A stretch of 44,947 nt of DNA from Moritella sp. (lineage in GTDB: Bacteria > Pseudomonadota > Gammaproteobacteria > Enterobacterales > Moritellaceae): the NCBI RefSeq assembly GCF_013215705.1, contig NZ_JABSQR010000040.1:1-44947 (forward strand), read 5' to 3'. Positions within the stretch are counted from its first letter, which is position 1, and each line of letters opens with the position of its first letter. Under the pieces are notes generated by a model. It saw nothing but the letters and a program-made list of their open reading frames with translations. It did not search any database and was not told the DNA's origin. The position numbers and the translations under genes were made by a program. This document shows, piece after piece, positions 28,395 to 44,512 of this stretch.

Positions 28395-31331
28395 CTATTG
28401 TTGTTGGAAAACTTTAGTCATTTTATTTATCTCAATCACATCAGCAAAAGGAATGTTTTGCTCAGGGAAGGCTGCTTGAACCTTACTTGTCAGTGGCTTA
28501 GAGAATGAACGGTAGTTTATTTTAGCGACTACAGTGATTGGGTAACTTATCCCTGCTGGTAGTTCGAATGATTCAACACGAGTTTCATCAGGAGATATAC
28601 GGGTATCTGATAGAATCTTCTCTACGCGCCAGAATTTAAGACCAACTGGTTCACCATGCATGTAACCGGATTTCTTAGCAAACACACGGCTGTCTTTTGG
28701 TAAGTAACCATCGTTTAACTGACCACTCACTAAACGCTTTTCGCCTTTGCTATCCGTTACCACAAGATCAATCCATACTTGACGACGTGCGCCACCTGGC
28801 ATTTTGTGGCCGGTATTATGGTTGGTGACTTTGACATCAATACTGCGGCCATCTTCGCTGGTTTCCACGTCGAGTAGTAGGGCGTTACGTAAGATATCAC
28901 GACTGAGTTTACCGTGTTCTTTCGAACGCATATCAGAGAAGTAGTAGTTACCACCAATAAAGTTATGTGCAATCAAGTTTGGTTTAATTGGCCCATTATC
29001 GGTTGCTTGACCCGGTACTTTTTTATCAAAATCTGTCATGTCTAAGCGCATGTGACAATCTATACAGGTTTTGTTCTGCTCTGGGTTGTCTGGTGAATTA
29101 AATTTAGAGGCTTGCCATTCGCCATAGTTGTTATTCACATTGGCACCTTGCCCAGGGGTGAATTCATTATGACAGGTCGCGCAATACAAAGAGCTTTTGT
29201 ACAGTTCAGGGTTTGAATAGCTGTCTTTGTGCTGTTGCGGTGATGCATTTATTTGAGCTTCAGCAATGAATTTTAATGCGGGGTTACTCGAAAATTCAAA
29301 CAAGTATTCAGCGCGGTCTTTTAAGTTTACGGTGAGGTCGGTATTACCGCCTGCATCTTCCGCTTTGGTGATTCGATGACAGAACACACAGCTGGTGCCA
29401 GTTTCATCAACGGGGAGACCTTCTCTTAGTGCATCACGTAGGCTCTGCCCTTCTTTTTCATACATGCTATTAAGATGAGTCAATGGCGCGGTATTGTTAT
29501 TTAGAATCGTTTGTGGGGCATGACAGCCTCGGCATAAGTTTCTAAATGGTTCACCTTCTGATTCTGCGGCTAAGTTTTCTTGGAAGCGATAATAAGGGCT
29601 ATCCATGTGCATTCCATGGTTAGAGTCTGCCCACTGTTTATAGAGCGTACTATGGCACGATTCACAACTGGCTGAATTTAACCATTCTGATTTATGAGTG
29701 AACTTACGTTCGTCATCAAAGCGTAACCAGGTTGATAGATAGGGTAAATTTTCTTTCGTGGTTACGTACATATTTAATGCTGACATTAAGCGTACGATCT
29801 CTGCAGACGGTGCTTTAGGATCAACTGTTGGTAGTTCTGGTTTCTTAGGGTCTGTTCCCATACCACCTTGCGTTTTTTGGATCATATCGATATAGGCTTC
29901 GATAGGATCGCCAGCGATCATGGTTGCTAAGCCTATATGACCTGTCATTGCATTGACTTTAACGTCTTTAGTACCGTCAGCTAACAAGTATTTGTTGGTG
30001 AAGTTAAACCCGTCAACATGACAAGAATTACAGCTCATCCAGAAATCACCAGCCATGGCTGAGTTTTCAAACTTATTGCTGTTTGCAAGATTGAAGAGCG
30101 TTTTACCTAAACGCAGTTCAGGCGCGATTGGATCGTGACTAATTAATTTGGCGAATTGCGCGTTAGCCAATTTAACTTTAGCAAAAGGGCCTTGACCACT
30201 CACATCAAAACTCACTAAGTCGTGAGACATGGCATTTTGGACATAGAGTGTACCGTCTTTCTCAATCATGCTACGGGGATTCGTACCGGGTATATGACGG
30301 TAAATTTGCGTCGCTTTTACGCCGCCTTGTAATTTGGTACGGCGATGGCGTTTTGATTTTTTACCTATTTTACCTTGACGAGATAAATCAAACACGAGCA
30401 GATCTTCTGATCCTGATAGGGTTATAAATACTTTTTTACCGTCTTCACGGAATGTCACGTCATGCGGGTTAGACACAATACGCGTGGTATTGTTGTTCTC
30501 AATGATGTTGATTTGTTTAAATAACTGTTTACGTTTATCAACCATTTCTTTTTCTTTACCTGGGGTGAGGTCAAGTAGCGAAATAGTTGGGAAGACGGTT
30601 GATTGAAACTGGAAGTCTTGTGTAAACGACCACAATACATGGGGTAGCCAAGCTTGTGTGCCATCGGGAGAAATCGCAATATTATCTAATACCCGTGGTT
30701 TACCTTGCGGTGTTGCACGAGATGAATGTACTGGCGTATCAACAAGTTGGATGATTTTGTTTAATTTCAATTTTGGCTGTCGGGTATCATAAATGGATAC
30801 TTGGCCAGTCATGCTATGGGTCACAAACAAACGACCATCGTCAGCTAATGCAAGACCACGTGGTGTATCTGCTGTTTGTGTTGTTGCGGTTATTTCACCA
30901 TCTGTTGAAACGGTTATTAGCTGTTTAGCTTCAAACAATGTGACGTAGTATTGTTTGTTATGCTCATCATAAACGATACCAAAAGGGCGATAGCCTGTTT
31001 TGATTGTTTTAATTAGTTTAAGGCTTTTAGCATCAATGAGGTAAAGTTGATCTGCAAGATAATCACTGACTAATAACTGATTGTTAATCGGGTCTAATGC
31101 AAGACGGCGTAAGTCTTTACCCAATGCTTGCTCTTTTAAGAGTTCACCAGTTTCAACGTTAATAATACTGACGCTGCCTGCATCCATATTGGCACTAATA
31201 AACTGAGTTCCATCTGTTGATAGTAGTAAACTGTTACTTTTTGTATTCGAAAAATCAGTACTGGCGTAAAGTGAGTTGCTTGCTAACAATAACAAGGCGC
31301 ATATTAATTTAGGCAGAAAATGTATGTTCAT
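28395..31331 (-). CDS. Exported beta-propeller/hexaheme c-type cytochrome
   Basis: A 978-residue protein with a signal peptide (cleavage near residues 23-24, LYAS). Residues about 30-400 form YncE/NHL-like beta-propeller repeats (GTLYVQNAMSHDLVSFDVSG, GRLFVTHSMTGQVSIYD). Six CxxCH haem sites follow: CNSCH 434, CESCH 556, CRGCH 600, CVFCH 648, CATCH 717 and CIDCH 756. The first sits in a cytochrome-c-peroxidase-like segment; the other five resemble cytochrome c554/NrfA-like multihaem domains. The last 170 residues are an Ig-like domain (NHNTGHKMPGGARRQVW). It should be periplasmic or surface-exposed and carry electrons. It starts three bases after the GT-C gene, the last gene of the minus-strand iron-permease cluster. 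Its partner is unknown. Confidence 0.88.
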   Translation of the reverse strand: MNIHFLPKLICALLLLASNSLYASTDFSNTKSNSLLLSTDGTQFISANMDAGSVSIINVETGELLKEQALGKDLRRLALDPINNQLLVSDYLADQLYLIDAKSLKLIKTIKTGYRPFGIVYDEHNKQYYVTLFEAKQLITVSTDGEITATTQTADTPRGLALADDGRLFVTHSMTGQVSIYDTRQPKLKLNKIIQLVDTPVHSSRATPQGKPRVLDNIAISPDGTQAWLPHVLWSFTQDFQFQSTVFPTISLLDLTPGKEKEMVDKRKQLFKQINIIENNNTTRIVSNPHDVTFREDGKKVFITLSGSEDLLVFDLSRQGKIGKKSKRHRRTKLQGGVKATQIYRHIPGTNPRSMIEKDGTLYVQNAMSHDLVSFDVSGQGPFAKVKLANAQFAKLISHDPIAPELRLGKTLFNLANSNKFENSAMAGDFWMSCNSCHVDGFNFTNKYLLADGTKDVKVNAMTGHIGLATMIAGDPIEAYIDMIQKTQGGMGTDPKKPELPTVDPKAPSAEIVRLMSALNMYVTTKENLPYLSTWLRFDDERKFTHKSEWLNSASCESCHSTLYKQWADSNHGMHMDSPYYRFQENLAAESEGEPFRNLCRGCHAPQTILNNNTAPLTHLNSMYEKEGQSLRDALREGLPVDETGTSCVFCHRITKAEDAGGNTDLTVNLKDRAEYLFEFSSNPALKFIAEAQINASPQQHKDSYSNPELYKSSLYCATCHNEFTPGQGANVNNNYGEWQASKFNSPDNPEQNKTCIDCHMRLDMTDFDKKVPGQATDNGPIKPNLIAHNFIGGNYYFSDMRSKEHGKLSRDILRNALLLDVETSEDGRSIDVKVTNHNTGHKMPGGARRQVWIDLVVTDSKGEKRLVSGQLNDGYLPKDSRVFAKKSGYMHGEPVGLKFWRVEKILSDTRISPDETRVESFELPAGISYPITVVAKINYRSFSKPLTSKVQAAFPEQNIPFADVIEINKMTKVFQQQ

Positions 31332-31334
31332 AGA

Positions 31335-32858
31335 TTACAGCATCTTGGTAGGGAAATAGGCATTACGATTAAGAATGGTTATCATTATATCGGTTTGACG
31401 TGATAGTGCAATATTTGCGGTTATGTTTAAATGATTAGGATCAAAGTAATATAAGTATAAACTTCGCTCGCCAAGAAATCGGCCTTTAAATTGCTTAACT
31501 ATGCTTTCGTTATTTAACCTATTACTACTCAGTCGCCAATATCCTTGTTGCTGCGCTTGGTAATTACTGCTGCTTTGATAATGTCGGTCTAAAATCACAT
31601 GTTGTGGCAGGTTATTCCGTAAATTATCAATGTTATAATTACTGATAATCATTTGCTGCTTGTCCATTGTTTTAAAGAACTGAGTCGCTTGTAATACAGG
31701 GGCATTTCTTTGTTGGGTGAATTGTTTGATACTGTGATAACCCAGTGTCACGAGTAAGATACAACTCAATATGTATAGAGCAGGGCGCATACGCTGAGTT
31801 TGGTAAACGTGTTCAATGAGTTGCGCGCAGATAATCGGTAACAATAAACTGAAAACGGCTAAGTGACGAATATTTTCTGGATTCTGGCCTCGGATGATCC
31901 AGGCAAACCAACAGCACACCAAAATACTTAATCCACGGGTTCTTGGTAGATATAAACCAATGGCTAATATCGAGGTTAATAATATAACCCCGAGCGTGGA
32001 ATAGGTATTGGTTAATGTAGTCAACCACTGGCTCAATCGCGAATCTGTGGTACTGGTGGTATTACCCCAAATCGTAAAGTGACCTTGGGTGAATCGCTGT
32101 CCTTCTTCAATATAGGCCCAGCCGTCTTGCATGAACACGTAGAACGCACATATGACCCCTACCAGGGTAATGCTGAATATCTGCCAGCCAAGGCGTTGAT
32201 AACCTTGTCTACGTTGACGGTGATAAAATAGTTCTAACAACATTGCACAGGCGACTAAGGGTAAATAAGAAGGTCGAGTTGCTAAACATGCCGCTAATAA
32301 TAACCCGCTAATAATCGCGGAGAATGTTTGTCTTGGTAAAAGAGACTGTAATACACGGTGTAATTTAGTCTTTAATAAAGGGCCTGAGCCAAGCGGTAGA
32401 TGAAAACGGGTTAATAATAAATATAAGCTAAAGAACCACAGTGCGGAAGCGTCTGATAAACCGTTTAAGGCCAATTCGGCAATGTTGCCTTGCAGTAAAA
32501 ACAGCAGTACTGCGAATAATGCAAATGACTTTATTTTCATACGTTGGTAGCAATACATAAAAACACTTATTGTAAGCGTAATTGCCGAAAGGAAACTGAG
32601 TATTACATTGCTGTTGGGATGTGAATTTATTACGTGGATAAGTCGTTCTAACCAAACAAAACCAGGGTAACCAGGAAAGTGAGGGCTAAATTCTAATACT
32701 GAAAAATGGCTCAAGGCACGCTGAAAATAAAGCGCATCATCACTGCTAATATCAAAACTATAATAATTGAGTAAACCAAAATAGCCTGCAATGCAGGCTA
32801 TTAAGCCAATACTAATTATTAAACCAGCGCGCCAAGGTTTATTATTTGGTTGGTGCAT
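31335..32858 (-). CDS. Polytopic membrane protein, GT-C glycosyltransferase-like
   Basis: A 507-residue inner-membrane protein with about ten or more hydrophobic helices and a soluble C-terminal part of roughly 120 residues. The first periplasmic loop has an acidic motif (SFDISSDDALYFQRAL) followed by FPGYPGFVWLERL, as in GT-C enzymes such as ArnT/PMT-type lipid-linked sugar transferases. That assignment is by architecture only. I chose ATG 32858, which overlaps the preceding gene by 17 bases; a TTG at 32906 is in the same frame. The cytochrome gene starts three bases after its stop, so the two are surely co-translated. Confidence 0.65.
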   Translation of the reverse strand: MHQPNNKPWRAGLIISIGLIACIAGYFGLLNYYSFDISSDDALYFQRALSHFSVLEFSPHFPGYPGFVWLERLIHVINSHPNSNVILSFLSAITLTISVFMYCYQRMKIKSFALFAVLLFLLQGNIAELALNGLSDASALWFFSLYLLLTRFHLPLGSGPLLKTKLHRVLQSLLPRQTFSAIISGLLLAACLATRPSYLPLVACAMLLELFYHRQRRQGYQRLGWQIFSITLVGVICAFYVFMQDGWAYIEEGQRFTQGHFTIWGNTTSTTDSRLSQWLTTLTNTYSTLGVILLTSILAIGLYLPRTRGLSILVCCWFAWIIRGQNPENIRHLAVFSLLLPIICAQLIEHVYQTQRMRPALYILSCILLVTLGYHSIKQFTQQRNAPVLQATQFFKTMDKQQMIISNYNIDNLRNNLPQHVILDRHYQSSSNYQAQQQGYWRLSSNRLNNESIVKQFKGRFLGERSLYLYYFDPNHLNITANIALSRQTDIMITILNRNAYFPTKML

Positions 32859-33498
32859 CAGGCAATGTAAATTGTAATGCAACTTGTAAGTTAGTGCGGT
32901 ATTCAATGTAGCGCGTTAAATCTGCAGGTTTTTGACCCACACCAAATACCCCCGGGTTACCGATTGATGCAAGGGCGCCGCGAATGGCTATATCGGCTTT
33001 TTGGCGATTGTCGGCAGTTAAATCAGCAGCAAGTAAATCAATGAATAACTTACTTTTGACGACCAGCACTTTAGCTACTTGATATTCATTGATGTTTTGC
33101 TCTGCACCTTCAAGACGACGCATGACTTCTGCTTTTATCGTGGTGGTTAGTGCTCTGGCCACACCTTGTTGATCTTTATTCGTGATCGCGGTTTGCATTT
33201 GTTTATCGACAGCGAGCCCATGGTGCTCGTTAAAATACACGAATTCTTTCTGCATCGAATCATAGGCAGTTTGCACTGCACTATAATCACTTGCCGATAA
33301 TGCTTTTAACAAGGCTTCTCGACCTTCAATTAATGGTTCTTTACCTGCTGCGGCATAAGAATAAGCAAAGCTTTGCGCACTAAATAATAATACGAAAAAA
33401 CTGAATAACAGTGATGCTAAGTTTCTGTTAATAGCCGTTTTCTTCGCTGCTTTTTTAGTGTCTATTTGGGTCAATTGTATAATAGGTTTAAGCGACAT
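32842..33498 (-). CDS. Exported helical protein of unknown function
   Basis: A 218-residue protein. A long basic n-region (KKAAKKTAINRN) precedes a hydrophobic stretch and a likely signal cleavage after QSFA near residue 45. The mature part is almost entirely helical and charged: AAAGKEPLIEGREALLKAL, then a DYSAVQTAYDSMQ helix, EFVYFNEHHG and RRLEGAEQN. Acidic and histidine residues could bind metal. In helical character it recalls the extracytoplasmic helical domains fused to some FTR1 permeases, but I do not recognise the family. Its ATG overlaps the end of the FAD-enzyme gene by 11 bases (coupled translation). Confidence 0.7.
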   Translation of the reverse strand: MSLKPIIQLTQIDTKKAAKKTAINRNLASLLFSFFVLLFSAQSFAYSYAAAGKEPLIEGREALLKALSASDYSAVQTAYDSMQKEFVYFNEHHGLAVDKQMQTAITNKDQQGVARALTTTIKAEVMRRLEGAEQNINEYQVAKVLVVKSKLFIDLLAADLTADNRQKADIAIRGALASIGNPGVFGVGQKPADLTRYIEYRTNLQVALQFTLPDAPTK

Positions 33499-34930
33499 TT
33501 GTTACCTCTGGCGTTTTCTTATCATCCATAATGCTTTGCACTTCAATCACGGTTTTTTCGTTACGGTGGTCAAAGATCTGGCGACGATTATCTTCACCCT
33601 TAATGATACCTTCTGCTGCCATCAGGCCCATTTCCATCGCGGTATCGGTGAAGATGTAACGGAAAGTACCTTGGCGACCAGTCATAACCAAGTTGCCAAA
33701 TTGGTTAAGATGAGTGATTGCACGTTCACGTTTAGCGTTATAACTCACGTCCATCATTGGATAAGCGTATTCGGTGTAAGTGGTAAAGAATTCACCGGTA
33801 CTTACATCTGGCACTCCGAGATGATTAAGATCTTGTTTTACGCGTTTTAATAGTTTGTTGTTGTCCATGTGCCAAACGTCATCACCTTTGTTACACGGGA
33901 TTTCGATCATCACTGATGTTTGTCCTTTGGGTGCCATAAATGGTGAACGGCGACGCGGTTCTTGCAAACGCGTACCAATTAACTCTGGGTCAGACAGATA
34001 CTGCCAGGTATTTTGTGACACGTTTTCTGTGGCCATCGGCATGTTGAAAAAGCGTAGCGAGCGATAAGTTAGGCCAGAATCAAATCCTGTTAAAGTACAA
34101 ACCACTGGTAAAGGAATAGTACCGACAACGTGATCACAGCTAATTGAGTTTGTCTCACCGTTAAGTTCATATGTGACGGCATCAATACAATTCTTACCTT
34201 GATTCAGAGCGGTGATATTAGCGCCTCGAACAATCGTTACACCTTGTTCTTGCAGTCTTTCTGCAAGTTTTGTGTACATTTGGCCAAAGCCGAGTTTTGG
34301 ATAGCGGTATTTTTTAGCGTAAGTACGCGGTGTTGCGCCACGTGTTGGGATTAAACGTCGAGCAACATCTTTTAAATCTAATAAGCTAATACGTTGTGAT
34401 GCCCAGTCGGCTGATAATTGACGCGGGTCGATACCCCATAGTTTACCGGTGTAACCTTCAAAGAAGTTTTTGTATAGTGTGGTGCCAAAACGGGTTTCAA
34501 TCCATTCGGCAAAGTTACTGGTGCTTTGTTCACTTGGGCGTTTTTGGAAGGGTAATTTGAAAACCAGATCAATGGCCGCTCCGGCTAATAAACTTATCGG
34601 CGCATTACGTAATAAGTTACCAATCGCAAGCGGGTAGTTGTAGGTACGCCCTTTAAAACGGATCACACTAGTACGCTCTGCATACAGCAGATCGTCAGTC
34701 ATTAAGTCATCGATAAACTGTAATAGTTTCGGATTTTTAGTAATAAAGCGATGGCCGCCATAATCAAAACGGTATTCACCTTTTTCACCTTGGAAGGTTT
34801 GCGTTGCGCACATGCCACCAACAAACTCTTCACGTTCTAGGATAGTGACTTGGTAACCAGCTTGATTAAATTCCCATGCGGCCATTAGCCCAGCAGGACC
34901 AGCGCCTAAAATTACAATTTGTTTCGACAT
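33488..34930 (-). CDS. FAD-dependent oxidoreductase, amine oxidase/UDP-galactopyranose mutase-like
   Basis: A 480-residue flavoprotein starting MSKQIVILGAGPAG, with the Rossmann GxGxxG at residues 9-14, the ribose-binding E near TILEREE, and GGMCAT, DYGGHRF and the C-terminal GNLVMTGRQGTFRYIFTDTAMEMG segment. It belongs to the large group including protoporphyrinogen oxidase, phytoene desaturase and UDP-galactopyranose mutase; ENFFEGYTGKLWG-like text (NFFEGYTGKLWGID) favours the mutase-like side. No signal peptide, so cytoplasmic. The reaction is unknown. I chose ATG 34930; the frame runs to a TTG at 34936. It is coupled to the exported helical gene. Confidence 0.82.
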   Translation of the reverse strand: MSKQIVILGAGPAGLMAAWEFNQAGYQVTILEREEFVGGMCATQTFQGEKGEYRFDYGGHRFITKNPKLLQFIDDLMTDDLLYAERTSVIRFKGRTYNYPLAIGNLLRNAPISLLAGAAIDLVFKLPFQKRPSEQSTSNFAEWIETRFGTTLYKNFFEGYTGKLWGIDPRQLSADWASQRISLLDLKDVARRLIPTRGATPRTYAKKYRYPKLGFGQMYTKLAERLQEQGVTIVRGANITALNQGKNCIDAVTYELNGETNSISCDHVVGTIPLPVVCTLTGFDSGLTYRSLRFFNMPMATENVSQNTWQYLSDPELIGTRLQEPRRRSPFMAPKGQTSVMIEIPCNKGDDVWHMDNNKLLKRVKQDLNHLGVPDVSTGEFFTTYTEYAYPMMDVSYNAKRERAITHLNQFGNLVMTGRQGTFRYIFTDTAMEMGLMAAEGIIKGEDNRRQIFDHRNEKTVIEVQSIMDDKKTPEVTNVA

Positions 34931-34966
34931 TATCAACTCAATTTTTTAATTTTTTTAGTGTTCTTA

Positions 34967-35044
34967 AGTCGGTAGAATAAACTTATCGTGGGCTTGCGCA
35001 GGCATTCATGCTTGCAACAGCTGTCTTTGTTTATACCACCGACT
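34967..35044 (-). repeat. Long inverted repeat between FTR1 and FAD-enzyme genes
   Basis: Arms of 16 bases at 34967-34982 (AGTCGGTAGAATAAAC) and 35029-35044 (GTTTATACCACCGACT) pair at 14 of 16 positions, enclosing 46 bases that hold a small GCATTCATGC palindrome. The structure fills most of the 139-bp gap between two genes of the same strand. It is too long for a standard terminator. On the minus strand the second arm is followed after a few bases by an A- and T-rich stretch. It may be an RNA processing/stability element, an attenuator or a small RNA. Confidence 0.6.
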
Positions 35045-35075
35045 ATGTATATATTATTTAGCGTTTGCTTTAATA

Positions 35076-35912
35076 CTAAGTTGCGGCTGTTTTAGTTGGC
35101 ACTTGGTATCCTCGGTGCCAAAACACGGTGAATATCGCTAAATAAACGAACCAAATAACAAGCGGTAATAAATTTGGTGATGAATTATAACCAAATAAAG
35201 CACGTAAGAAAGTACCGAATACGCCTTGATCATCAAGGACATGACTAATATCAAACACGGCAGTCTGGAATACCGGTAACACGTCTGCGCTTTGTAGCAT
35301 GTTACTTGCCGAAGACAATAGGCCTGCGGCAATAATGATAATCAGCAAGCTGGTCCATTTAAAGAATGCTTGTAGTGGTACTTTACGGGTACCACGCATC
35401 AGTACGATAACTAATATCAGCGATGCGATTAAACCTGCGCCTGCACCGATTAACCCATCTTGTAGTGAGAAATCGCCTTGGCCTGAATACATCAACGCGG
35501 AGAAAAATAGCACGGTTTCAAAGCCTTCGCGCATGACCGCAAGGAAAGCCAAAAAGATTAAACCAAAGACATTGCCTGTCGTTAATATTTCGCGAATGTT
35601 CTGTTGCATGTTAGAGACTTGGGTTTTGGCTTGGCGTTGCATCCAAATGGCCATGTAGGTGAGTACCAAGGTCGCAAAGCCTAAAATACCCGCCATTAAT
35701 AAATTACGGTATTCATGCGAGTCGAACTGATCGACCACGAACTGGAAAATGAAAGCGACAATTAATGAGGCAATTAAACCAAGTGCAACACCCAGATAGA
35801 TAAGTTTGTTGTGTTTTGATTGGCCAAGCTTTGCTAAATAAGAAAGTATAATGCCAACGAGTAGGAAGGCTTCAAGTCCTTCACGAAAAGTGATTAAAAA
35901 ACTGGCAAACAT
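35076..35912 (-). CDS. FTR1-family iron permease
   Basis: A 278-residue inner-membrane protein with seven hydrophobic segments. Both iron-binding REXXE motifs are visible: R10-E14 (FREGLEAF) and R128-E132 (MREGFETV). The two motifs in helices 1 and 4 are the hallmark of Ftr1/EfeU permeases, which import iron after oxidation of Fe(II) by a partner protein. The start codon lies four bases after the stop of the cytochrome b-like gene, so the two are co-translated. No EfeO, EfeB, P19 or cupredoxin is seen nearby, so its redox partner must be something else, possibly its haem-protein neighbours. Confidence 0.92.
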   Translation of the reverse strand: MFASFLITFREGLEAFLLVGIILSYLAKLGQSKHNKLIYLGVALGLIASLIVAFIFQFVVDQFDSHEYRNLLMAGILGFATLVLTYMAIWMQRQAKTQVSNMQQNIREILTTGNVFGLIFLAFLAVMREGFETVLFFSALMYSGQGDFSLQDGLIGAGAGLIASLILVIVLMRGTRKVPLQAFFKWTSLLIIIIAAGLLSSASNMLQSADVLPVFQTAVFDISHVLDDQGVFGTFLRALFGYNSSPNLLPLVIWFVYLAIFTVFWHRGYQVPTKTAAT

Positions 35913-35916
35913 AATA

Positions 35917-36399
35917 TTAAGACTTCCTAAAGAATTTGATTACAGTCCAGCGCCAAGCGTGACGAAGAACAAGCGGGGCAAGCAGCCATGAGCTGTAAAA
36001 GTGGATATCTTGCATGAGTATACTGAAGTTATTACCCGTGTTACCCCAAAAAGTAAGGTAGACGCCGGTAAGAGTACAAACAATGAGCAAATATTCGATA
36101 ATGGTACCGGTTTGGCGTAAGAATTTCTTTTTACTATTTTGAATAAGATTTCGGTGAGACAGCCAGAAACTACCAACAAAAACAGGGAAGATACTGATAC
36201 CTGCAAGCATATGCATGAGTAGTACGGTACGTTCCACTTGCCATGGAATAGTGATAAATGGCCACAGTAAAAGTCCTGACAGGAACATCAAATATAATAT
36301 CGCTTCGGCTTTCTTATGATGGAAAGCGAAACGTTTAAAATGAGACTGTAAACGTGACCAGATGTTATCACCGGTTGGGGTTGCTATTTGAGCTGACAT
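35917..36399 (-). CDS. Four-helix membrane protein, putative cytochrome b
   Basis: A 160-residue inner-membrane protein with four predicted helices at about residues 33-53, 60-82, 96-116 and 130-152. Histidines lie in or near helices in pairs typical of b-type haem ligation (LLMHMLAG, SHRNL, DIHFYSSWLL and LRHAW). This is similar in layout to small cytochrome b/DUF4405 proteins. It probably relays electrons across the membrane for the adjacent FTR1 permease, analogous to the way FtrD serves FtrC. Haem binding is inferred from histidine placement only. It is four bases upstream of the FTR1 start. Confidence 0.6.
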   Translation of the reverse strand: MSAQIATPTGDNIWSRLQSHFKRFAFHHKKAEAILYLMFLSGLLLWPFITIPWQVERTVLLMHMLAGISIFPVFVGSFWLSHRNLIQNSKKKFLRQTGTIIEYLLIVCTLTGVYLTFWGNTGNNFSILMQDIHFYSSWLLAPLVLRHAWRWTVIKFFRKS

Positions 36400-36433
36400 G
36401 ATAAAACCTTATTCATATCGACGTAATGAAAAC

Positions 36434-36469
36434 GCAAAAAGGGCTGAGTTAATCCTCATCCCTTTTTGC
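36434..36469 (-). terminator. Terminator/attenuator hairpin after the 673-aa gene
   Basis: Arms GCAAAAAGGG (36434-36443) and CCCTTTTTGC (36460-36469) with an inner TGAG/CTCA stem form a 14-bp hairpin with one internal mismatch. On the minus strand it is followed by GTTTTC. It lies between the 673-aa exported protein gene and the cytochrome b-like gene, so it may let the exported protein be made in excess over the membrane genes. Confidence 0.65.
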
Positions 36470-36564
36470 AACTTTTATTTTAGTTTCGCAACACTTTCAT
36501 TAATCAATACACGTTAATTAACAAGTGTGCTACGAGATGGCTTTTCATTGCCAAAAGAGTGAGA

Positions 36565-38586
36565 CTAGTTTGCACTAACCGACACTTTTGCTGCCATCGT
36601 TTGTGCTGTACCGTATTTACCGCCAGCAGCTGTTACTTGTTGTACGCCATCATTATCTGAATCGGTAGTTGAATTGTTTTTCAGTAAGTTTTCACCTGAA
36701 TCACCAACCCATTCTGATAATTGTTGACCACCATTAACTACTTTCTTGAACCAAGCAGTGTAACGCTCTGTTAAGTGTTGTAGTTCTAGTGCAGGAACAT
36801 GTTCGCCTTCTTCATTTGAAAGGTGAAGCATAGTTTCACGTAAACCACCAGAGATTGCTGCAGCCGTTAACGGTGTGTGAATTGTTGCTTTACCTGGTGT
36901 TTGTGCCCATGTACCTAGCTCTGCATCAAACATGTTTTTCTCTACCGCGAGGAAGATAGAACGTGCTGCTTGCTTGTAAGTATCATCTTGTGTCGCAAGA
37001 TAAGCAGAAACTAAACCACGGATTGCAGCGAATTGTGCATCAAGAGATTGGTTTTTATCTACTGATTTACCAACTGTAGCGCCATCGTATACTAGACCGT
37101 TTTTAGCGACTAGTGTATTAACGATGTAATCTGCTTGCGCTTTGATTAAACCAAGAGCTTGTTTACCTTGAGGTGTTGCTAAGTCAACATCACCACCGTC
37201 TGCTGCTGCATAACCAACAGGTAGTGCATCTTGTGAACGTTGGTAAATAGATAGTGCTACGATGCTGTATGCCGCGTCAAACGTTTCAACTTGCGCATTT
37301 TGCTTGCCGTCGTATTTCGTTACAAACGTACCAGCTTTCTTATTGAAGTGTAGATTTGCTAAATTTTGGAACGATAGGTTAGCAATGTTGCTTGCAAGAG
37401 AGAATGCATCGTCAGCAGCTACATTGTTGTTTGTTTTACCATCGATATTTTGTTTTGGTGCGGCAGCAAATGGTTTGCCATCAAATACAGCTTTAAACGC
37501 TGGATTTTGTGCAGTATTCGCTGTGCGTTGGTCAGTAAATGCATAGAATTCACTTACAGGCCATAATAACATCCACGTATCACGTAGTGATGATGAACCA
37601 TCTGTAACTGTTAATTTACCGATGTTATTTACGTTGTTCTTTTGTGTTTCTTTAACTGCTACTTTGTGTGCAAACCAGATTGGGTTTTTAGATGCATCGT
37701 AGTCAGGACCGAATTTAACACCTAGGTTCTTACCGTCAAAGCCCAGTTGCTGTTGCAGGATAAGTAGTTTGTCTATTGACATTTCAGTTAAGATCATGCC
37801 ATTGAAACCATCGGCAGCAGATACACCAAGACTGTGTTTACCGTCTTGATCCATTGTGCTTGATGTTGCTTCAACTTCTTCATCTGTCGTTGTAACGTGC
37901 ATGCCACCTAGGAAATCTTGTGACCACATTACTTCTTTAAGGAAGATGCTACCGATTGCGCCTGGATTTAAGGCTTTATCAAAACTTGCGTTGTCCCATG
38001 CTAACGTTTTGTAGTCACGGAAGTAAGCTGGAATTACTGTGTTGTGTACCGCTGCTTTACCTGTTGCAGATAATACTTCTAACTCTTCGCCATTAACTTT
38101 CGTTGTATCTACTTTACCTGCAAATTCAGGGCTACCTGAAACGTATGGTACAGAAATAGGGTACATGTTTAATGGGATTTCTTCACTTGGGAAGCCAACT
38201 GCGCCTGCAAGTGAGATGAAGCGTTTACCTAAGTCAGCAAGAGAACCACCACGTGCTTGGTTAACTGGACCATTAACTAGGTGAGGACCCATAGTTGATT
38301 GGTAGTTTAACGCGTACATAGCTTCTTCAGAATACTCGTAGCTTTCAATACCTGCTGCGTAATCGAATGCAGTCGGTTGATCAACTTGGTTAGGATCTAA
38401 AACATCAAGGTCTAAACCAAGAGCTTCAGCAAGAGGTTCACCTGATAATTCAAATTCTGTATATGCAAGAAAGTTTGCAGCAGGAGAAAGTGTTTTATCA
38501 AGCACTTTTACGTTTACAGCATGTGATGCAAACGAAGCAGTAAGTAATGCTGAAGAGATGGCAAAGCAGAGAGCAGATTTTTTCAC
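36565..38586 (-). CDS. Large exported protein of unknown function, first gene of FTR1 cluster
   Basis: A 673-residue protein with a clear signal peptide (SALCFAISSALLTASFASHA, cleavage near residue 23). The mature protein is soluble and acidic. The N-terminal half has no motif I recognise. The C-terminal half (about 380-640) is helical with repeated hairpins (LDAQFAAIRGLVSAYLATQDDTY cut here, then SIFLAVEKNMFD), resembling an alpha/alpha-barrel. It has very few or no cysteines and no CxxCH. Start is GTG 38586 behind an AAGGA site. It sits downstream of two Fur-like boxes and ahead of the cytochrome b and FTR1 genes, so it is a candidate periplasmic iron-binding or iron-oxidising partner. That role is inference. 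Confidence 0.8.
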   Translation of the reverse strand: MKKSALCFAISSALLTASFASHAVNVKVLDKTLSPAANFLAYTEFELSGEPLAEALGLDLDVLDPNQVDQPTAFDYAAGIESYEYSEEAMYALNYQSTMGPHLVNGPVNQARGGSLADLGKRFISLAGAVGFPSEEIPLNMYPISVPYVSGSPEFAGKVDTTKVNGEELEVLSATGKAAVHNTVIPAYFRDYKTLAWDNASFDKALNPGAIGSIFLKEVMWSQDFLGGMHVTTTDEEVEATSSTMDQDGKHSLGVSAADGFNGMILTEMSIDKLLILQQQLGFDGKNLGVKFGPDYDASKNPIWFAHKVAVKETQKNNVNNIGKLTVTDGSSSLRDTWMLLWPVSEFYAFTDQRTANTAQNPAFKAVFDGKPFAAAPKQNIDGKTNNNVAADDAFSLASNIANLSFQNLANLHFNKKAGTFVTKYDGKQNAQVETFDAAYSIVALSIYQRSQDALPVGYAAADGGDVDLATPQGKQALGLIKAQADYIVNTLVAKNGLVYDGATVGKSVDKNQSLDAQFAAIRGLVSAYLATQDDTYKQAARSIFLAVEKNMFDAELGTWAQTPGKATIHTPLTAAAISGGLRETMLHLSNEEGEHVPALELQHLTERYTAWFKKVVNGGQQLSEWVGDSGENLLKNNSTTDSDNDGVQQVTAAGGKYGTAQTMAAKVSVSAN

Positions 38587-38624
38587 AACAAATCCTTTTT
38601 ATTTTTTATAATAGACTATGTCTT

Positions 38625-38692
38625 AATGAGAATAGTTCGTATTATCCATATAATTATGCTAAATGCAACTCTAATTGATAATTATTACTATT
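38625..38692 (-). promoter_or_regulatory. Putative Fur-controlled promoter of the FTR1 cluster
   Basis: Two 19-base sequences, AATGAGAATAGTTCGTATT (38625-38643) and ATTGATAATTATTACTATT (38674-38692), each match the Vibrio-style Fur consensus AATGANAATNATTNTCATT at 13 of 16 defined positions. Between them, on the minus strand, lies a promoter-like TTGCAT (38663-38668) with GATAAT (38641-38646) and a 16-base spacer. One box covers the -10 and start region and the other abuts the -35. Transcription would begin about 48 bases before the GTG of the 673-aa gene. Iron repression is inferred. Confidence 0.5.
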
Positions 38693-39375: not shown

Positions 39376-41439
39376 TTACTTGTCTATTGGTAATAATAGT
39401 TCAAATATAACCCCTTTATCACCCGGCAAGTTTCTTGCTTTTATGTTTCCATGATGGAAATCACTGATTAACTTGACGATATGTAAACCTAAGCCAAGAT
39501 GTGGAGTATCTGATTGTTGGCGATTGGAGACCATAGAGTCAAACAGCTGGGGGATATTATCACTGCTAAAGTGCGGTCCTTGGTTTTCGACCGAGAGTTG
39601 TAGTTGCGTGTTGATCTTATTTAGCTTAAAACGAATCGGTTGACCTACTGGCGCATAATCAACGGCATTACTGATGAGCTTATCGAGTAATTGGACGATA
39701 AGTTCTGGGGCTAAATTTATCGTGTAATCATCATTATGGTCGTATTCAAATTGAAATTGATGATGGCTGTAAATTTGTCGGTAAGCTTCGGTTACCTCTT
39801 CTAACATATCGTCAAACGGGACCACTTGCCACTGTGCATATTCAAAGCTTTGTTCTAATTTATTGGCTTCACTGAGTGCGTTTAATGTTTGGCTTAGGCG
39901 ATTTGTACCTTGCATTGCCCGTGTGAGGTATTTTGTTGCTTCCGGGTCTAAGTCCGATAATTCAAGGTTTTCGAGCGATGTACGAATCACGGCAACTGGT
40001 GTTTTCAATTCGTGAGAAAGTTTATCAGCCAAAGTAGCCAGATAGTCAGTGTACTTACCTTGATTAATCGTCAGTTGTTGCATCACTCGGGATAAATCAC
40101 CCAATTCATCAGGCAGTCTGCTGGCGGCTGGCACCGCCATTATCTTACCGTCGCTATCGATTGCTGCGCGGTAGTTCTTCTTCATTCGAACAATACGCCA
40201 AGACAAAGACGATGCAAATGCAAATAAGCCGGTCACAATCACGGCGATGATAGTAAACAGTAATATTAATAATTGGTTTAACGCTTTGCTGGCAGACAGT
40301 AAACTTTGTCGTGAATCTTGTACAGCAACCAAATAGAATTGTTGGCCATTAGCGATAATGACTTTACTATGCAGTTGTTTATTAATCGGCGAGTCTTGGT
40401 ACCAAGTTGTTTGTTCTAATTGCGGTGGAGATATCCAGCGGCCTAGGCTGGTAGGTTCTCGCCAATAAGGTAATGAGTTGGAGGTAAATAATCTGTTGTA
40501 GATTGCATTGGTGAGCCAGGATGGACCTGTTTGGTCACTATTACTATTATCATCTGAGTCATTCATCAGCTGATCTGCATTTTGTTGCCCAACCAGCCAA
40601 TATTGACTATTGAGCAAATACAAACTTAGTCCGGGTTGTAAATAATTAGCGAGTTGGTGGTTTAAATCCAATTCTTCACGCACTAGACTGCGTTCGTAAG
40701 TCGTCGTCGGCTTAGATTTAAAATGTTGATTTATTTGGCTGTCATTAAGTATGAGATCAAAGCCAATCGCATTGCTTGCTAAGTCAATTGGGATTGCAAT
40801 TTCTATATTGTAGTGGCCATCGCGCCATAACCAGGTACCAGCATCTCTACGCGTTGTCATTGTTTGACTCGTGTTGCGTATTTCTACACGACCAGAGCCT
40901 TGGGGGTTAATCTGCCAATGTGAAACCAGACCAGTATTATTGATACTGCGGATATTAAGCTGATCTGCAGCTCGCTGTGGTTGCATTGGATTATAATAAT
41001 GCGGTGTCAGCGCTGATGTCTGTATAAAGATATAGAGTAATCTATTATTTGCAGCTAACCTAAATTTGACTGTTGTGGCTGGCTTTGCTTCTGCCGATAA
41101 ATTGGCCACGTGATCATAGTTGTTAAGTTGAAACCAAGGTGTGGTGATATTTTTCCAATCACTTTCTTCACCGTCAAATCCGTCCAATAACATTTTACTG
41201 TCAGTGAGCGGGGCGTAATAGTTACCTTGGTGAGTATGAAAAATGGAATGTGGTGACTGGTTTAATGTGTGTTTAAGCTGTTGTGTTGCAGCGGTCATTT
41301 GCACATCAAGTAACTGGCTGTGGCTTTGGCGTAAACTGGTTTCTAAAATACTGACACTCTGACAACCAGCCCAAGGCAGTAATAACATTAGACTGGCAAC
41401 AAGTAGGAGTTGTGTCTTTAAGCTGAAGCGAATTTTCAC
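39376..41439 (-). CDS. pdsS: Sensor histidine kinase, proteobacterial dedicated sortase system type
   Basis: A 687-residue kinase. TM1 is at residues 12-30. The periplasmic region has a CBM9-like beta domain (about 75-235, with LLDGFDGEESDW and WLWRDGHYNIEIAIP). TM2 is near 387-410, then HAMP, then the phospho-accepting H476 in LSHELKTPVAVIRT, N-box DKLISNAVDYAP, and LGLGLHIVKLI. This layout matches the sensor kinase of the proteobacterial dedicated sortase system, common in marine species. The GTG start overlaps the pdsR stop by three bases. The partner sortase and its target are not in the window. Stimulus unknown; a glycan ligand is possible from the CBM9-like domain. Confidence 0.85.
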   Translation of the reverse strand: MKIRFSLKTQLLLVASLMLLLPWAGCQSVSILETSLRQSHSQLLDVQMTAATQQLKHTLNQSPHSIFHTHQGNYYAPLTDSKMLLDGFDGEESDWKNITTPWFQLNNYDHVANLSAEAKPATTVKFRLAANNRLLYIFIQTSALTPHYYNPMQPQRAADQLNIRSINNTGLVSHWQINPQGSGRVEIRNTSQTMTTRRDAGTWLWRDGHYNIEIAIPIDLASNAIGFDLILNDSQINQHFKSKPTTTYERSLVREELDLNHQLANYLQPGLSLYLLNSQYWLVGQQNADQLMNDSDDNSNSDQTGPSWLTNAIYNRLFTSNSLPYWREPTSLGRWISPPQLEQTTWYQDSPINKQLHSKVIIANGQQFYLVAVQDSRQSLLSASKALNQLLILLFTIIAVIVTGLFAFASSLSWRIVRMKKNYRAAIDSDGKIMAVPAASRLPDELGDLSRVMQQLTINQGKYTDYLATLADKLSHELKTPVAVIRTSLENLELSDLDPEATKYLTRAMQGTNRLSQTLNALSEANKLEQSFEYAQWQVVPFDDMLEEVTEAYRQIYSHHQFQFEYDHNDDYTINLAPELIVQLLDKLISNAVDYAPVGQPIRFKLNKINTQLQLSVENQGPHFSSDNIPQLFDSMVSNRQQSDTPHLGLGLHIVKLISDFHHGNIKARNLPGDKGVIFELLLPIDK

Positions 41440-42140
41440 TCAATAACCCAGCGATAACCCATCCCGTAAGCTGTTTTAATAGCGTTGAAATCGGCATCTA
41501 TGTAACTGAATTTTTTACGTATGCGTTTGATGTGTGTGGTGATGGTATTGTTATCGAGTACCACATGTGCGGCATCCATGAGTTGGTCTCGACTTTTAAC
41601 CTGACCAGGGTACTTAGCAAGGGTATGTACAATCCAAAACTCAGTTAACGTGAGCATGACGGGCTGATCTAGCCAGTAAGTCTCAATACGCTCGATATTG
41701 ATCCGCAATGAACCATGAGTAATGACTTGTTCGTCTACTGACGGCGGTTTTTTTAACGCTCGGACCCGGCGGAAAAGCGCCGCAACACGCGCTAAAACTT
41801 GATGAATACTGACGTCTTTTGTTAAGTAATCATCAGCGCCAAGACGTAACGCTGAAATCTCGTCTAGTTCACTGTTGCGCGCGGTTAAAAATATAATCGG
41901 TAGGGTTTCTGAAAGTTGGCGTAATGTACGGCATAGATCAAAGCCTCCTTCGTATTCACCCTGCAAACCGACATCAATAATAGCCATATCAGGCAATGCA
42001 AGGGTAAAGGCCGCTAGTGCGTCCTGGCGATTATGAAAGAGTGAAACCCGGTAGCCGATTCGTTGTAAGGCATCACGATAATTTTCTGCGATATTGATTT
42101 CATCTTCAACGAGGGCAATATGTAATTGTTGTTTTATCAT
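41436..42140 (-). CDS. pdsR: OmpR-type response regulator, dedicated sortase system type
   Basis: A 234-residue response regulator. The receiver domain has E12, D13 and phosphoacceptor D56 (AIIDVGLQGEYEGGFDL), and LRLGADDYLTKD with the conserved lysine. The C-terminal winged helix has LTLTEFWIVHTLAKYPG and ITTHIKRIRKKF. The EYEGG insertion after D56 and the C-terminal YGMGYRW fit the marine sortase-associated regulator family. It is translationally coupled to pdsS. The target genes are not evident. Confidence 0.88.
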   Translation of the reverse strand: MIKQQLHIALVEDEINIAENYRDALQRIGYRVSLFHNRQDALAAFTLALPDMAIIDVGLQGEYEGGFDLCRTLRQLSETLPIIFLTARNSELDEISALRLGADDYLTKDVSIHQVLARVAALFRRVRALKKPPSVDEQVITHGSLRINIERIETYWLDQPVMLTLTEFWIVHTLAKYPGQVKSRDQLMDAAHVVLDNNTITTHIKRIRKKFSYIDADFNAIKTAYGMGYRWVIE

Positions 42141-43555: not shown

Positions 43556-44512
43556 TTAAAACTGCCAGAATAATCCCAGACTGCCTACTATATATTCTTT
43601 GTGTGGGTCTTCTTCATAGTCCGGACTCATTGCAACGACGCTAAACTTGATGCCTACATTTTGATAGTAAGCAAGTAAGCCAGCGGCAGCCGTCGCTTGT
43701 ATGTTTTTTAAGGTGATGTCGGGCACTTCAACGGGGGTCTTACCTTCAATGGTTATATCATTAAAACGATAACGAATTTCTGCTGTCGCATAAAGCATGA
43801 TACCTGAGCTATTTGGCGCCAGTAACATGCCTTGCAATCGGTGTGGGTGTAAGCTGAGATTATTATAATTAACCCCTAAATTAGCGCCCCAACGTACCGT
43901 CGAACCAAAGGCCACTTCACTTTGAAAGTTACCGACAGCTAAGCGTTGATAAATTGACAGATCCGATTCACCAATGAGCATAAGAGGTCGGCCGACAAGT
44001 TGATCTGCCTCTGTTGTGACTTGGTAAACAATCTCATCTTCAATTTGATAGTCCCAACCTTGTGGTGTGGTGGCATCAATCGCATCATGAATGAATTTTT
44101 GGGTGTCACCTGCTCTTGATTGTTCACCGACACCGCCCACTAACAATGACAGACGATAAGAACTCACGGCGCTGTAACCTAATACACTTGCTTCACCAAA
44201 CAACAGACCAGCGTATGGGCGCTCATCAGTTTGGGGCGTAATGGCTGATATATCACTGGGTGTCCACATTTGCTGACCGAATTGATAATTCACTGCATAT
44301 TTAAGTGCGTTAGGATCAAAGGCCGTTAATGCTTGCCAAAATTGATTATTTAAAGCTGGTGCTTCTGCAGTGTAGTTAATGAAAACTGCATTGGTATAGT
44401 TACCATCCTCATCTGAGATAACGTCATTATGCATGCCAAATAGCCAACCGTTTGCAAAACTGCTCATTGGGGTTAAAGCGAGCAATATAATGCTGCATAA
44501 TTTAAAACGCAT
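43556..44512 (-). CDS. lpxR: LpxR-like outer membrane lipid A deacylase (DUF2219)
   Basis: A 318-residue protein with a signal peptide (cleavage after SSFA, residue 20) and alternating beta-strand character ending in an aromatic residue (LFWQF), typical of an outer-membrane beta-barrel. LpxR-family segments are visible: an N-terminal HND (28-30) with YTN (39-41), DERPYAGLLFGEASV, QKFIHDAID with H142, and PQGWDYQI. LpxR removes the 3'-acyloxyacyl chain of lipid A. Activity is inferred from the family. Confidence 0.82.
   Translation of the reverse strand: MRFKLCSIILLALTPMSSFANGWLFGMHNDVISDEDGNYTNAVFINYTAEAPALNNQFWQALTAFDPNALKYAVNYQFGQQMWTPSDISAITPQTDERPYAGLLFGEASVLGYSAVSSYRLSLLVGGVGEQSRAGDTQKFIHDAIDATTPQGWDYQIEDEIVYQVTTEADQLVGRPLMLIGESDLSIYQRLAVGNFQSEVAFGSTVRWGANLGVNYNNLSLHPHRLQGMLLAPNSSGIMLYATAEIRYRFNDITIEGKTPVEVPDITLKNIQATAAAGLLAYYQNVGIKFSVVAMSPDYEEDPHKEYIVGSLGLFWQF

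Follow-up and report, generated by a model that had tools for sequence, protein, structure and literature searches.

What kind of system places an FTR1-type iron permease among cytochromes and glycan-type enzymes? The question is raised by a contig of Moritella sp. (NZ_JABSQR010000040.1, positions 1 to 44,947; this whole stretch of 44,947 nucleotides [nt] is called the window here). Seven minus-strand genes listed by the initial annotation were all confirmed as open reading frames, running from position 38586 down to 28395, and are called, in transcription order, ex673, cytb160, FTR1, FADox482, hel218, GTC523, and cytc978. We regard the cluster as a variant of FTR1 iron uptake that lies outside the EfeUOB, FetMP, and FtrABCD systems, and we think it probable that the seven proteins form a Fur-repressed iron importer in which the FTR1 permease works with an electron path of cytochromes and with a glycan module. 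The observations behind this reading are the conserved association of the seven genes, a cytochrome fusion, the identities of the domains, Fur-like sites, and neighboring iron genes.

The association was first evident within the window's own order. Among 197 genomes of this order, hel218, ex673, a flavoprotein over the NF005547 cut-off, and a full-length cytochrome (at least 1421 bits) each occurred in 19, and these were the identical 19 genomes, all of them among the 68 that carry FTR1. The carriers span three families (11 genomes of the window's genus, 7 of a second genus, Aeromonas, and 1 of a third); being related genomes, they represent few independent events, with an exact match. A further Aeromonas genome (G189) was in none of the four carrier lists. 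The cytochrome profile also matched parts of proteins in 23 more genomes, at no more than 175.7 bits versus at least 1421 bits in the carriers. Among the other 18 carriers, all seven genes lay together in the ten Moritella genomes and in locus L079, and six lay together in the seven Aeromonas genomes. Each of these seven Aeromonas genomes carries ex673 at a separate site: on a different contig in three of them, and at a distance of 52 to 117 kb in the other four.

A wide scan of one genome per species (84,980 species), using the hel218 alignment and anchored on two hel218 peptides, returned 65 loci from gammaproteobacteria, alphaproteobacteria, and Campylobacterota. Loci, mostly from aquatic bacteria, were found in Moritella, Photobacterium, Aliivibrio, Vibrio, Aeromonas, Ferrimonas, Endozoicomonas, Modicisalibacter, and other gammaproteobacteria, in Pseudovibrio and other alphaproteobacteria, and in Sulfurimonas and Arcobacter. 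By tblastn, the 65 loci contained GTC (65 loci), cytc (64), FADox (63), FTR1 (61), cytb (60), and ex673 (38), counts that are conditional on hel218 and miss loci where it has diverged. Contig ends accounted for absences in L108 (the five genes other than hel218 and GTC), in L125 and L141 (cytb), in L147 (FTR1 and FADox), and in L149 (FTR1); the cytb genes of L135 and L145 were recovered by profile, and the 26 Aeromonas loci had no ex673 at the locus. L150, which lacks FTR1, is the only absence with no explanation of this kind.

Three gene orders were seen: ex673-cytb-FTR1-FADox-hel218-GTC-cytc, (ex673-)cytb-cytc-FTR1-FADox-hel218-GTC, and FTR1-FADox-hel218-GTC-ex673-cytb:cytc. The FTR1-flavoprotein-hel218-GTC block was contiguous wherever the contig permitted, except in L150, a locus whose hel218 is divergent. 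The seven genes thus occur together well beyond FTR1 and the cytochrome b, in rearranged order and in three lineages, and they form one conserved system whose grouping goes far beyond chance. Class-level samples (303 genomes each) were positive in the window's own genome only, and the system is therefore patchy. Mirror-tree correlations of 0.86 to 0.96 were confounded by the species tree and were not used.

Domain calls made in the initial annotation were borne out for the heme proteins and the permease. Every cytc longer than 900 amino acids (aa) had exactly six CxxCH motifs (58 of 58), with six shorter, cut, or broken sequences left out of the count. Four histidines of cytb160 were invariant, the number needed for two bis-histidine hemes, and the protein is probably a diheme cytochrome; the family scan of cytb160 was made with the window's protein only. 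In 13 loci, cytb and cytc formed one reading frame, as judged by a shared stop (L101, L102, L109, L119, L122, L128, L130, L140, L144, L147, and L149) or by a profile that matched within that frame (L135 and L145). These fused loci are the alphaproteobacterial and Campylobacterota loci, except L106 (broken frames) and L108 (contig end). The fusion argues for direct electron transfer between the two cytochromes.

Two REXXE motifs are the hallmark of FTR1 permeases. In the window's permease, which scored 157.5 bits versus a Pfam cut-off of 25.3, both motifs are present, and R10, E11, E14, R128, E129, and E132 were invariant across 19 aligned rows. It is the single FTR1 match in its genome and scored below the NCBIfam EfeU equivalog model (207.3 versus a cut-off of 255). 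In another Moritella genome, extra FTR1 matches occurred in a 649-codon frame (G103:C1:219044-219910) besides the cluster's own permease.

The small helical protein hel218 was less easily placed. Profile searches of the Protein Data Bank (PDB) with hel218, cytb, and FTR1 gave no significant match, and hel218, ex673, and cytb160 of the window had no Pfam family at an E value of 0.1. When 28 hel218 members were searched against Pfam, five unrelated families appeared, with one member each and a best value of 0.0062; a PHROGs search returned nothing useful. Foldseek with the hel218 model placed EfeO at ranks 1 and 2 and EfeM at rank 6, at E values of 0.47 to 1.8, which are not significant, and VIA-align found only generic helical bundles. 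Homology of hel218 to EfeO or EfeM was rejected on these grounds and remains a hint.

The other three proteins resemble enzymes of glycan metabolism. The gene initially called a flavin adenine dinucleotide (FAD) oxidoreductase does encode a flavoprotein, Amino_oxidase related, which is more exactly described as like UDP-galactopyranose mutase (UGM). Its nearest solved relatives were UGMs (PDB profile search, residues 7 to 315, E = 7e-27); despite this profile match, FADox482 fell below the cut-off of the UGM equivalog TIGR00031 (65.2 versus 303.75) and belongs to NF005547 (596.7 bits versus a cut-off of 380), a group that NCBIfam names "hypothetical protein." The GT-C protein resembles mannosyltransferases, and its assignment was upheld by relatives of GTC523: PMT_2 matched 5 of 22 aligned proteins (best, 6.4e-8) and GT87 matched 3 of 22, and D57 and QNP..RH were invariant in the alignment. 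The window's own GTC523 had no family match above the cut-off.

For ex673, the initial annotation had suggested a role as the iron-binding partner of the permease. The predicted structure is an exported (alpha/alpha)6 barrel, a sugar-enzyme fold of the GH/epimerase type, and on this model the reading as an EfeO-like iron binder was rejected; none of 27 members matched Pfam at 0.01. Sugar epimerase genes were found within or beside the cluster in four loci (L119:14034-15059, L135:9360-10412, L096:14858-15943, and L092:2202-4594), the last together with a UDP-glucose dehydrogenase gene. Such neighbors might hint at a sugar of the uronic acid type.

Control by Fur, also proposed initially, was evaluated by comparing predicted sites. 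The outcome depends on the consensus, and two strings were used, the second picked after the first: GATAATGATAATCATTATC, scored with mononucleotide shuffles, and AATGATAATNATTATCATT, scored with dinucleotide shuffles. The first gave its strongest signals mainly in Campylobacterota. The best match within 250 nt upstream of each lead gene was counted at P < 0.05, with 300 shuffles for lead genes and 60 for controls. With the second consensus, a Fur-like site preceded 21 of 24 nonalphaproteobacterial lead genes (window included), compared to 16 of 205 flanking control genes; the misses were L099 (P = 0.116), L094 (P = 0.076), and L145 (P = 0.99). Three of five alphaproteobacterial lead promoters passed. 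The 29 representatives include several species per genus, so that combined P values overstate independence. Taken as a comparison of predicted sites, these data support Fur control of the cluster.

Neighboring genes point in the same direction. In all seven Aeromonas genomes with an unlinked ex673, that gene was preceded by a separate Fur-like site (12 to 13 of 18; P = 0.002 to 0.034, mononucleotide shuffles). In the two Aeromonas genomes checked, siderophore genes lie close to ex673: the gene for isochorismate synthase (EntC) is about 1 kb away, with one small gene between them in L087. After EntC came EntE, over its cut-off, and then an EntB-like gene, which had no NCBIfam match at 1e-20 and whose name is our reading. 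The gene feoB was in or near 4 of the 65 loci. In L130 it is divergent from FTR1 and starts 400 nt upstream, and in L145 it directly follows the GT-C gene; L119 has it some 1.2 kb past the cytochrome gene, and L111 some 3.8 kb upstream.

Table 1. Features of the FTR1 cluster in the window (pLDDT, predicted local distance difference test; MFE, minimum free energy)
Feature	Positions	Strand	Description
ex673	36565..38586	-	Exported protein of 673 aa; (alpha/alpha)6 barrel by prediction; DxDxDG motif close to C terminus; without Pfam family
cytb160	35917..36399	-	Membrane cytochrome b-like protein; four invariant His at 63, 82, 133, and 147 (25 rows)
FTR1 permease	35076..35912	-	PF03239, E = 5.8e-46; REXXE at 10-14 and 128-132
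FADox482	33488..34936	-	PRK07208/NF005547 flavoprotein; likely start ATG at 34930
hel218	32842..33498	-	Exported, all-helical protein; conserved AYSYAAAGKE and GNPGVFGVG stretches; model pLDDT 88.3
GTC523	31335..32906	-	Membrane glycosyltransferase of the GT-C type; probable start, ATG at 32858
cytc978	28395..31331	-	Exported YVTN-type beta-propeller plus hexaheme cytochrome c
Fur-like site before ex673	38674..38692	-	15/18; shuffle P = 0.007
Second Fur-like site before cytc978	31368..31386	-	Within 3' tail of the window's GT-C frame
Hairpins between ex673 and cytb160	36400..36560	-	MFE -49.1, z -5.3; one terminator-like by eye

The initial annotation had read the seven genes as one unit with several translationally coupled pairs (Table 1). 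The spacings held: 4 nt separate cytb160 from FTR1, FADox482 and hel218 overlap by 11 nt, and hel218 and GTC523 overlap by 17 nt if GTC523 starts at an internal ATG, or by 65 nt if it starts at the first TTG. The 3-nt gap between GTC523 and cytc978 was also confirmed and is specific to the window, because the window's GT-C frame extends past the stop found in 9 of the 10 other Moritella loci, where the corresponding gap is 89 to 129 nt; in the tenth (L078), the GT-C frame was misassigned. At 31335-31424, the extended frame runs through DNA that is intergenic in Moritella relatives and covers the Fur-like site upstream of cytc978.

The larger spacings lie elsewhere. Strong hairpins occupy the 165 nt between ex673 and cytb160, and 139 to 145 nt precede the flavoprotein gene. 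A terminator-like hairpin after ex673 recurred in all 10 other Moritella loci; it was absent from the list returned by a terminator scan of the window. The second Fur-like site, before cytc, matched at 14 of 18 in all 10 other Moritella loci and at 9 of 18 in L079 (no shuffle test). These hairpins and this second site suggest that the genes may be transcribed as two or three units of one regulon instead of as a single transcript.

Comparison to characterized FTR1 systems places the cluster apart from each of them. EfeUOB and EfeUOB-M, of Escherichia coli and Pseudomonas syringae, combine an FTR1-family permease with one or more periplasmic partners and the heme-containing EfeB (PMC9174327). 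The permease family is common to EfeUOB and the cluster, and EfeUOB likewise has periplasmic and heme-containing partners, whereas the cluster has multiheme c-type and b-type cytochromes and a glycan module. No M75/EfeO (PF09375) match was found in the window's own genome, and no DyP-type peroxidase of the EfeB kind was found among the cluster proteins. In the FtrABCD system of Bordetella, FtrB is a cupredoxin. Extra redox proteins, thioredoxin-like in kind, are required for low-iron growth in the FetMP-FetABCDEF/P19-cFtr1 system of Campylobacter jejuni (PMC10783030). FetMP/P19-cFtr1 and FtrABCD resemble the cluster as multigene FTR1 systems with extra redox proteins; the cluster differs in that its redox part is heme based instead of thioredoxin-like or cupredoxin and in having sugar genes. 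The P19/FtrA/FetP family (PF10634) had no match in the window's genome.

In yeast, Fre reductases act as the ferric reductase partners. The Fet3-Ftr1 system (PMC9174327) with its ferric reductase offers a parallel for a possible joining of heme electron transfer to FTR1 transport, with the difference that the cluster encodes a hexaheme cytochrome c and a quinone-type cytochrome b and no multicopper ferroxidase. We did not file the cluster under EfeUOB, FetMP, or FtrABCD because the defining features that were tested for these systems were not found. The initial annotation knew of no described system with this gene set, and searches confined to open-licence papers brought up none that we recognized as matching it.

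We propose the following mechanism, in which iron is the presumed substrate. At low iron, Fur would release the genes, a step to which the predicted sites point. Iron would enter the periplasm by a route encoded outside the cluster, hel218 would be the periplasmic protein that hands it to FTR1, and FTR1 would move it across the inner membrane. In place of a multicopper oxidase, EfeB, P19, or FtrB, the redox partner of FTR1 would be cytb together with the periplasmic propeller/hexaheme cytc, and this pair would pass electrons from periplasmic iron to quinones or in the opposite direction, with the quinone pool as a putative partner. We lean slightly toward cytochromes that accept electrons from Fe2+ over cytochromes that reduce ferric iron, because FTR1 transporters are described as oxidase dependent (PMC9174327). 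Reduction of ferric iron is almost as probable.

The glycan module (the UGM-like mutase, the GT-C protein, and ex673) would make and handle a sugar used for iron capture or for maturation of an exported partner. Judged by its conservation, the module appears obligate, and we suspect that its product is either a glycan that binds iron or a sugar attached to an exported partner. A stronger version is possible but rather doubtful: a new FTR1 architecture in which a cytb/hexaheme cytc path carries electrons between periplasmic iron and quinones and in which capturing or guiding iron requires a dedicated glycan in the periplasm, perhaps an acidic one (uronate), that ex673 handles. We know of no iron transporter whose function requires a glycan produced by the same operon.

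Several results weigh against an iron importer of this kind. Locus L150, from a Motiliproteus metagenome-assembled genome, keeps six genes, and FTR1 was found neither beside them nor anywhere else in the genome record. Three of the seven proteins point to glycans, and to our knowledge no FTR1 system needs them. Foldseek gave hel218 no significant structural relative, and the hel218 alignment contains only one invariant carboxylate and no invariant histidine. Of the FTR1 partners that the initial annotation reported missing, EfeO and P19 are indeed without a match in the genome, but one DyP-type match (PF04261, 27.3 bits versus a cut-off of 20.4) lies on another contig, and an EfeB-like protein is possible. 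With the first Fur consensus, the signal upstream of the window's ex673 was weak (13 of 19), and a promoter scan found fewer sites (16) than shuffled sequences (mean, 30.3).

Some of the same data could be explained if the cluster were a respiratory or extracellular electron-transfer module, with electrons passing from quinol through cytb and the hexaheme cytochrome to an external acceptor and FTR1 supplying iron for heme loading. The cytochrome b/c fusion suits such a role, as do weak matches of cytc978 to MtrC/MtrF-type and ExtKL profiles. Fur-like sites and siderophore and feoB neighbors do not, nor does the contiguity of FTR1, flavoprotein, hel218, and GTC outside L150; no outer-membrane partner gene was identified, though most flanking genes were unannotated, and we consider this explanation unlikely. 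It is also quite unlikely, in our view, that envelope-glycan assembly is the primary function, with FTR1 and the cytochromes providing iron and electrons for one enzymatic step. The UGM-like flavoprotein, the PMT_2-like GT-C protein, the (alpha/alpha)6 barrel, the epimerase and UDP-glucose dehydrogenase genes, and the L150 locus lacking FTR1 would all be accommodated, but the Fur-like sites before lead genes and the feoB and siderophore neighbors point to iron nutrition.

The initial annotation had also raised the alternative of two unrelated adjacent operons, one for iron uptake and one for a glycan/cytochrome module. The hairpins after ex673 and the second Fur-like site before cytc do suggest more than one transcript in Moritella. 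The seven genes nevertheless recur in three lineages with shuffled order, and ex673 co-occurs even when unlinked; with the iron half and the glycan/cytochrome half inherited together and reshuffled, this alternative was rejected on gene content and is very improbable. If the Fur-repressed importer is correct, then members of Aeromonas and Photobacterium (many species), Moritella, Pseudovibrio, Arcobacter, and Sulfurimonas hold an unrecognized iron-uptake system in which respiratory-type heme proteins stand in for copper oxidases. It would also give a function to ex673, hel218, and cytb160, which had no Pfam match here, and to NF005547 flavoproteins, and it would make the FTR1 redox step and the part of a glycan in metal capture testable.

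Other genes near the clusters were recorded as well. Upstream of ex673 in the window (39376-42140) are a response regulator over the cut-off and a histidine kinase below the cut-off of the "proteobacterial dedicated sortase system" models; no sortase was present among the scanned neighbors of this pair. A DUF2982 gene lies between the histidine kinase gene and ex673, an order kept in the ten other Moritella loci. One Sulfurimonas locus (L135:4990-7003) has two additional genes between GT-C and ex673; their products, of 335 and 334 aa, are exported judging from their N termini. Upstream genes in Ferrimonas (L111:1493-2759) and Endozoicomonas (L153:258-1484) cluster together, and the Endozoicomonas one matches the NapC/NirT multiheme family. 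Farther along the window, at 43556-44512, is an LpxR-type outer-membrane gene (PF09982, E = 2.2e-69).

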